Assembly (NCBI RefSeq): GCF_000371805.1
Contig: NZ_AQUK01000001.1
Coordinates: 942,268-1,006,267, forward strand
Direction: 5' to 3'
Origin: Methanocaldococcus villosus KIN24-T80
GTDB lineage: Archaea > AGJL01 > Methanococci > Methanococcales > Methanocaldococcaceae
DNA: 64,000 nt
The notes below the pieces were generated by a model that was given only the letters and a program-made list of their open reading frames with translations, was not told where the DNA came from and did not search any database. The position numbers were made by a program, and so were the translations under genes. This document shows, piece after piece, positions 9,172 through 16,752 of this stretch. Each line of letters opens with the position of its first letter. The first letter of the stretch is position 1.

Positions 9172-9643
9172 GTTTGAATCGCTTATCCATTAAAACAAGG
9201 ATGGAAACCCGCATTTCCTTGGTCGTCTACATGTCTTTCTGTCAGTTTGAATCGCTTATCCATTAAAACAAGGATGGAAACAAGAACATTAACAATCTCA
9301 TTATTATCATTCAAGTTTGAATCGCTTATCCATTAAAACAAGGATGGAAACTTGACATTCTGACACAAACTCTCGCCTCCACAATATGTTTGAATCGCTT
9401 ATCCATTAAAACAAGGATGGAAACTAAATCCATCTTCGATATTAATATTGGATAATTCAGTTTGAATCGCTTATCCATTAAAACAAGGATGGAAACTATA
9501 GAAAATATAGGAATAAAGGAGTTTGTTAAAAATGTTTGAATCGCTTATCCATTAAAACAAGGATGGAAACTTTCATGTAACGCCGCAACTACCGGGTCTA
9601 TTTCCTGTTTGAATCACTTATCCATTAAAACAAGGATAAAAAA
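9172..9643 (+). CRISPR. CRISPR array 2: 7 repeats of 37 bp, 6 spacers
   Basis: Repeats begin at 9172, 9245, 9315, 9388, 9460, 9534 and 9607 and are the same unit as in array 1. The spacers are 36, 33, 36, 35, 37 and 36 bases and share no obvious sequence with array 1. The last repeat (9607-9643) is degenerate: GAATCG has become GAATCA and the 3' TGGAAAC has become TAAAAAA. This is expected at the old, leader-distal end. Arrays 1 and 2 point the same way, 7.1 kb apart. Confidence 0.98.
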
Positions 9644-15787: not shown

Positions 15788-15795
15788 TTTATATA
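15788..15795 (+). promoter_or_regulatory. TATA box for tRNA-Ile and the downstream RNA
   Basis: TTTATATA preceded by purine-rich AGAAAAG (a BRE-like stretch) lies 38 bp before the mature 5' end of tRNA-Ile. Transcription would start near 15818. The same AAAAGTTTATATACTA string occurs before tRNA-Thr at 22951. Confidence 0.7.
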
Positions 15796-15833
15796 CTAGT
15801 TTTACTTATGCATAATCTACTAACTTTTATTGT

Positions 15834-15908
15834 AGGGCGGTGGCTCAGCCTGGTTAGAGCGCTCGGCTGATAACCGAGAGGTCCGGGGTTCAAATCCCCG
15901 CCGCCCTA
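15834..15908 (+). tRNA. tRNA-Ile (anticodon GAT)
   Basis: The acceptor AGGGCGG pairs with CCGCCCT, followed by discriminator A. The anticodon loop CTGATAA places GAT at 34-36. The T arm has CGGGG-TTCAAAT-CCCCG. The 3' CCA is not encoded (TCA follows), unlike the other six tRNAs in the window. Confidence 0.96.
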
Positions 15909-15940
15909 TCATTTTTTAACTAAATCATTTTTTAACTATA

Positions 15941-16062
15941 ATCCAGGTGGTGACCTTCCGCAGGGGATGACACCACCGCGGCAATCTGCCCACATGGCGG
16001 CCGGGTAGAGGAGGCATAGGCCTTCAATGAAATATCCCGGTTTTCCAAGGGCAGATACAAAC
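15941..16062 (+). ncRNA. Structured GC-rich RNA, Hgc-like
   Basis: A GC-rich island in an A+T-rich genome. It forms a 7-bp helix GGTGGTG/CACCACC (15946-15952 with 15971-15977) capped by CCTT/AGGG, and a long-range 8-bp helix ATCTGCCC/GGGCAGAT (15984-15991 with 16049-16056). The latter encloses CCGGG/CCCGG (16001-16005 with 16036-16040) and a GAGG/CCTT hairpin. A run of T follows at 16062. It lies 32 bp after tRNA-Ile and may share its transcript. It is not tRNA, RNase P or 7S RNA; the style matches the high-GC (hgc) RNAs found in M. jannaschii, but I cannot name the family. Confidence 0.75.
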
Positions 16063-16080
16063 TTTTTTAGAGAGTCTATT

Positions 16081-16752
16081 ATGAAAATAAAAAATTTAAC
16101 TTTAACAGAGGATAGGGCTATTATTTATAAAAAATATGGAATTATAGCTGATACCCATATTGGTTTTGATATTTCATTCAATGAATCAGGAGCTAATTTT
16201 CCATTAATACAAAAAGATAGAGTTATAAATAACATTCTAAAACTTATTGAGAATTATAAAATAAAATCATTAATAATTAATGGGGATCTAAAACATAATT
16301 TTTATCCTATAAAAAGAGAAATAGAGTTTGTAAATGAATTTTTAAATTTATTAAATGAACATGTTGAACTAATTTTAATAAAAGGGAACCATGATACTTA
16401 TTTAAGTAAAATTACAGAGACATATGATTATTTTGAATTAGGTAAATACACTGTAACTCATGGACACAAAGTTGTAGAAGGAGATTTTTTAATTTTGGCT
16501 CATGAACATCCTTCTATAAAAATAAGAGATGAGATTACAACATATAAATTTCCAATATATTTAGTAAATAAAAATTATATTGTTTTACCTGCTTTTAATC
16601 CTTTATCTCCTGGAAATGATTTGGTTAATAATTATCCTTCATCTCCAATAATAAAAAAAGATTATTTAGATGGGGAAGTGTTTGGAATAACAGAAATTGG
16701 ATTATTAGAATTTGGGAAATTAAAAGATTTATTAGAATTTAATAGATTATAA
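16081..16752 (+). CDS. SbcD-related metallophosphoesterase (archaeal, TIGR00024-like)
   Basis: A calcineurin-fold phosphoesterase of 223 residues. The metal-binding motifs are all visible: DTHIG, NGDLKH, KGNHD, THGH and AHEHP. Relatives are described as SbcD/Mre11-like but lack the larger nuclease scaffold, so the substrate is uncertain. The upstream ATG at 16027 falls inside the structured RNA and is rejected; ATG 16081 gives the normal family N-terminus. The gene overlaps the convergent PEP synthase gene by 6 bp. Confidence 0.82.

Follow-up and report, generated by a model that had tools for sequence, protein, structure and literature searches.

A conserved noncoding RNA of the Methanococci, probably of the H/ACA type, with an extra 5' K-turn hairpin and RNase P RNA as a candidate target

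The window that we analysed is a stretch of 64,000 nucleotides from the genome of Methanocaldococcus villosus KIN24-T80, and coordinates are those of the window unless another sequence is named. On its plus strand, a tRNA-Ile(GAT) gene (15833–15910), preceded by a putative TATA-box-like sequence, TTTATATA (15788–15795), is followed by a 120-nt element (15943–16062), by a tract of six U residues (16063–16068) that from its sequence is the probable 3' end or terminator of the element, and by a phosphoesterase open reading frame (16081–16752), a chance neighbour outside the RNA whose ATG at 16081 comes 19 bases past the element. The tRNA-Ile and the phosphoesterase gene are the neighbours given in the original prediction, which had also singled out the element as GC-rich against an A+T background. 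The GC content is indeed 58% at 15943–16062 versus 30% across the window, where the only other 120-base stretches with at least 50% GC are the adjoining tRNA-Ile, a tRNA/5S cluster at ∼23 kb and a tRNA-Ser. Moreover, the minimum free energy of the element is −54.5 kcal/mol, compared with −37.3 ± 3.5 kcal/mol for dinucleotide shuffles (z = −5.0), and none of 200 such shuffles matches its stability. The window also contains two CRISPR arrays (2072–2618 and 9172–9570), whose repeats belong to the same Rfam family (CRISPR-DR7).

The R2 model matches the whole structured RNA with 104 bits and, in the window, an E value of 2e-23; the RNA folds into two hairpins. Hairpin 1 (15943–15981), which we call the accessory K-turn hairpin, has the stem GGTGG(TG)/(CA)CCACC, in which GGTGGTG (15946–15952) pairs with CACCACC (15971–15977) over 7 bp; its K-turn consists of tandem GA at 15952–15953 and 15969–15970 and a 3-nt bulge, GAU, at 15966–15968. 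Hairpin 2 (15984–16059) begins with a lower stem of 8 bp, formed by ATCTGCCC (15984–15991) and GGGCAGAT (16049–16056). Above it lies an internal loop with a left (5') strand, ACA-U-GGCGG (15992–16000), and a right (3') strand, UUUUCCAA (16041–16048), and then an upper stem (16001–16040) composed of CCGGG/CCCGG, a K-turn (GA at 16008–16009, GA at 16029–16030, bulge AAU at 16026–16028) and an apical helix, GGAGGC/GCCTTC. An ACA box (16057–16059) directly follows the lower stem. The 7-bp hairpin and the 8-bp long-range helix had both been predicted; the third, nested helix with its K-turn, the K-turn of hairpin 1 and the ACA box are additional.

By BLAST, homologues were found in 13 of the 14 Methanocaldococcus genomes (12 besides the window genome). 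A first covariance model, built from 13 sequences, then located the RNA, usually in single copy, in 35 of 36 Methanococci genomes representing all five genera, the sole genome without it being 54% complete, and a second covariance model gave the same outcome. A phylum-wide search covered the same 36 genomes, as the phylum set comprised only the class Methanococci. When 85,000 species were scanned with a pattern, no archaeon beyond the Methanococci was detected, and the scattered bacterial matches are about as numerous as we estimate for chance. Within the element, Rfam 15 gave no match, either at the gathering threshold or at E ≤ 10, and the covariance models of HgcC, HgcE, HgcF, HgcG and SscA reached no gathering score. 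The RNA is thus none of these five families as modelled in Rfam 15, and the identity with HgcC that could have made it a known RNA was not found. HgcC and SscA (RF00062, RF00063) are likewise GC-rich free RNAs that were first sought in AT-rich hyperthermophiles, and neither has a cmscan match of useful score to the new RNA. Klein et al. 2002 and Schattner 2002 reportedly proposed M. jannaschii ncRNA candidates from GC-content screening in the same genus. Since such a screen would obviously catch the M. jannaschii locus of the RNA (118057–118176, minus strand), this locus may already be among their bare candidates.

The structure was evaluated on 34 distinct sequences in an alignment fitted to the covariance model. 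Standard base pairs occupy 88% of the pair cells, and 27 of the 29 base pairs change on both sides, compared with 17.2 in shuffles. The covariation score is 0.543 versus 0.213 for shuffled alignments, and slid versions do not exceed 0.10; the first alignment, built without the structure, is consistent with this (12 pairs vs 4.5 shuffled). The lower and upper stems of hairpin 2 are paired in 92% and 93% of cells and show changes on both sides in 7/8 and 4/5 of their pairs, respectively, and the core of hairpin 1 has double changes in all five of its pairs. Both predicted helices are therefore backed by strong covariation. A K-turn (GA / NNN-GA) is present in each hairpin in all 34 homologues. 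In hairpin 1 it stays while the stem varies (GGUGG/CCACC, GCAGU/ACUGC, GGGGAC/GUCCCC and others), and this hairpin has neither an internal loop nor a box in any of the 34. In hairpin 2 the family loop strands read A-Y-A-N-GGCGG and UUUUCCAA, with GGCG invariant in 34 genomes and the preceding N being A, C or U. The ANA box is ACA, or AUA in some Methanococcaceae. In the family alignment its distance from the upper stem is 16 nt, and in 22 of the 34 homologues a U tract follows it. The pair that closes the top of the loop is G.U in most species. If this pair forms, the spacing to the ACA box is 15 nt, otherwise 16 nt, and its replacement by A-U in two species supports the value of 15 nt and yields a stem of 10 bp.

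The element is a conserved, free-standing noncoding RNA gene, and its genomic context is variable. The original prediction offered two readings, a free hgc-class RNA that arises by processing of the tRNA-Ile transcript and a cis-acting leader of the phosphoesterase gene. The leader reading, or a riboswitch, drew on the 19 bases between the element and the ATG. However, by tblastn the phosphoesterase gene lies beside the RNA at none of the 12 other Methanocaldococcus loci, it is ∼80 kb away in M. jannaschii and, in the window, the tract of six U residues separates the two. Synteny thus refutes this reading, which we regard as extremely improbable. The first reading stands as to a free RNA gene, while the tRNA linkage is found here only. 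At the 12 other Methanocaldococcus loci there is no tRNA nearby, and a TATA-like box precedes the RNA at most of them, which makes the linkage peculiar to the window genome; a class of tRNA-Ile-linked ncRNA was rejected accordingly. In most of these relatives, the upstream neighbour is one common gene, presumably ribose-1,5-bisphosphate-isomerase-like, followed by the TATA-like box and then by the RNA. At seven loci from three genera (L074, L075, L086, L092, L182, L183 and L184), a truD-like pseudouridine synthase gene lies 31–101 nt upstream of the RNA. This adjacency is suggestive of a link to pseudouridine, but we do not count it as evidence because the neighbour differs at other loci.

In the window genome, no TATA-like box was seen in the sequence between the tRNA-Ile and the RNA (15911–15942), and for this reason the two probably form a tRNA-sRNA dicistron and are co-transcribed. 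The RNA would now be under the tRNA-Ile promoter and would be freed by tRNA 3' processing and by termination at the U tract that follows it. However, two further tracts of six U residues at 15907–15937 could likewise terminate the tRNA-Ile transcript, which makes the dicistron uncertain. The same stretch, 15907–15937, is a tandem duplication of ATCATTTTTTAACT. In M. jannaschii, a structured stretch of ∼190 nt lies 3' of tRNA-Ile(GAT) at about 873480–873690 (minus strand) and terminates in a duplicate of the tRNA 3' end (GAATCCCCGCCGCCCTACCA), resembling the scar of an integrated element. In Nanoarchaeum equitans, guide-type RNAs are said to sit directly 3' of tRNAs without a promoter of their own, and the arrangement in the window is alike. 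The RNAs of the N. equitans dicistrons with which we compared the pair are box C/D sRNAs (PMC3491384), whereas the window RNA is of the H/ACA type and has its tRNA arrangement in one species.

Archaeal H/ACA guides carry an ANA box 14–16 nt from the upper stem, and a 10-bp stem with 15-nt spacing has been described as productive (PMC4652768). Hairpin 2 has the stem-internal loop-stem organization of such guides, a K-turn with tandem GA and a 3-nt bulge in the upper stem (34/34) and an ANA box immediately after the lower stem, at a spacing within this range; a Cbf5 gene is also present. From these sequence features, the element is very probably an H/ACA-type RNP RNA. The term 'hgc class' was therefore right in kind, although no Hgc or SscA model of Rfam matches, since several of the Pyrococcus Hgc RNAs belong to the H/ACA guides (PMC4652768) and the new RNA looks like one too. 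It has the lower stem, internal loop, upper-stem K-turn and ANA box in common with Pyrococcus Pab21, Pab35/HgcF, Pab40/HgcG and Pab105/HgcE, its spacing being at the limits of the published range. It differs from these sRNAs in having no Rfam sequence match, in adding a 5' K-turn hairpin without pocket or box, and in lacking a convincing rRNA target, RNase P RNA being the best. An accessory K-turn hairpin is not known to us from any other H/ACA sRNA, and the combination of a pocket-less K-turn hairpin with an H/ACA hairpin is, to our knowledge, new among published guides. This extra hairpin is atypical of H/ACA RNAs and would fit an unrelated class of structured RNA, such as a regulatory sRNA that resembles H/ACA by chance. 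Against it, pocket, K-turn, ANA box and spacing are conserved jointly in 34 homologues, and the R2 model also retrieves a genuine-looking double H/ACA sRNA from the window genome, so that we hold a chance resemblance to be quite unlikely.

That second RNA (L203:1570–1720; G000:C1 about 1071069–1071219, plus strand) is a clear double H/ACA sRNA with two hairpins, two ACA boxes and K-turns. Its second motif has a weak Rfam match to HgcE (24.4 bits, below the gathering score), and the pocket of its first motif pairs with 23S U2603, which we take to be the site or region of E. coli Psi2504. Another locus of the window genome that the model retrieved (L091:1513–1620, minus strand; G000:C1:1225312–1225419) carries a single H/ACA hairpin that resembles hairpin 2 with a changed pocket. 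It occurs in this genome only, has 16S U1307 as a candidate target (9 pairs) and looks like a recently duplicated, retargeted guide.

Searches of 23S and 16S rRNA by the canonical rule and by relaxed ones gave no site at which the loop does clearly better than its shuffled versions. Positions 343, 599, 1408, 1623 and 2723 of 23S rRNA were rejected, as pairing there draws in bases of the stem, leaves long gaps or depends on numerous G.U pairs; at 2723 (M. jannaschii) only 3 of 100 shuffles match the loop, but a 6-nt gap is required. tRNAs gave T-loop matches of 8 pairs only. The best rRNA candidate is 23S U2045 (M. jannaschii, model numbering), in the region of E. coli U1939, where GAAA-UU-CCUUGU would be bound by UUUC and ACAAGG. 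This is the top 23S/16S site by the canonical rule, with 10 Watson-Crick pairs in M. jannaschii, and the C/U change in the loop still pairs with G in most species. However, 106 of 300 shuffled loops do equally well, and 10 of the 34 species, that of the window among them, have a mismatch at the guide's central base. It is thus doubtful, though not negligible, that the RNA guides modification of an overlooked rRNA site such as this one.

RNase P RNA was tried only after the rRNA targets had failed. It provides the best pairing of the loop among the stable RNAs, with 5'-GGAAG-[U/C]U-CCGCC-3' in the 5' strand of helix P4; at −19.3 kcal/mol this is the strongest among LSU, SSU, SRP, 5S, 36 tRNAs and RNase P, the SRP and 5S pairings being weaker. 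Only one of 400 shuffled loops pairs equally well with RNase P RNA alone, whereas 29 of 400 (7%) do so when all stable RNAs are taken together; the strength of the pairing by itself does not settle the matter. In 29 of 29 genomes the RNA can form 9–10 pairs, in an imperfect register, with the RNase P RNA of the same genome, and each of the 30 RNase P RNAs located has the target motif, with UU in Methanocaldococcus and CU in Methanococcaceae. The variable loop positions N and Y fall outside the pairing, and a species that lacks a U of UUUU still has UUUCC. In M. jannaschii RNase P RNA, numbered by matching the sequence G-U-U, the unpaired target bases correspond to U41 and to U42, which is universally conserved, and both sit at the catalytic centre of the enzyme (PMC6565675). 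The RNase P RNA gene (window genome 678119–678373, minus strand; M. jannaschii 643504–643761, plus strand) lies ∼210–240 bp downstream of the 23S rRNA gene on the same strand in both genomes.

Several features fit this target less well. The first unpaired target base is C in Methanococcaceae, so the canonical Psi-N register cannot yield Psi there, and U42 would be reached only with a third unpaired base, which is reported to be unfavourable. The guide is unchanged where P4 shifts from CCGCC to CUGCC, pairing being retained by G.U only, and this pairing leaves unexplained why A residues of the loop are invariant. Given the H/ACA reading, RNase P RNA is a possible target, at somewhat below even likelihood.

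Such a particle could work as follows. L7Ae would bind both K-turns, hairpin 2 with the ACA box would be the assembly site of Cbf5-Nop10-Gar1, and the loop strands GGCGG and UUUCC would pair with the target around a short unpaired stretch, in which a uridine would be isomerised to pseudouridine. With the 5' strand of P4 as the best match, the particle would act on the catalytic U41/U42, and it may either modify this region or hold the P4 strand open during folding. An RNP with an H/ACA fold that modifies nothing, opening or protecting the P4 strand as a chaperone or serving as a sink for L7Ae, would accommodate both the complementarity of the loop to P4 and the occurrence, in the second family (Methanococcaceae), of C where Psi would be expected. 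Archaeal RNase P itself counts L7Ae among its subunits, and an accessory K-turn hairpin is present in every homologue. The chaperone activity of L7Ae on M. jannaschii RNase P RNA in vitro (PMC6565675) also speaks for such a role. The proposal is nevertheless purely inferential, and the ANA box and pocket spacing fit catalytic guides, which leaves a solely non-modifying role unlikely. In sum, the locus is probably best explained as an H/ACA-type RNA with an extra 5' K-turn hairpin, for which RNase P RNA is the best target seen in sequence comparisons. Only tentatively do we propose the more specific reading of a dedicated Methanococci H/ACA RNP that, with its accessory K-turn hairpin, pseudouridylates or chaperones the bulged-uridine region of P4.

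The RNase P idea is directly testable, given the genetic tractability of M. maripaludis and the in vitro reconstitution of M. jannaschii RNase P. For comparison, one human map of Psi lists no high-confidence site in RNase P RNA (PMC11541003). The RNA adds to the Methanococci a clade-wide gene that is new to Rfam 15. If the RNase P assignment is true, an RNA-guided machine would modify the active site of another ancient RNA-based enzyme, a new kind of target for an H/ACA-like guide, and the match could bear on the differences between native and in vitro-made archaeal RNase P.
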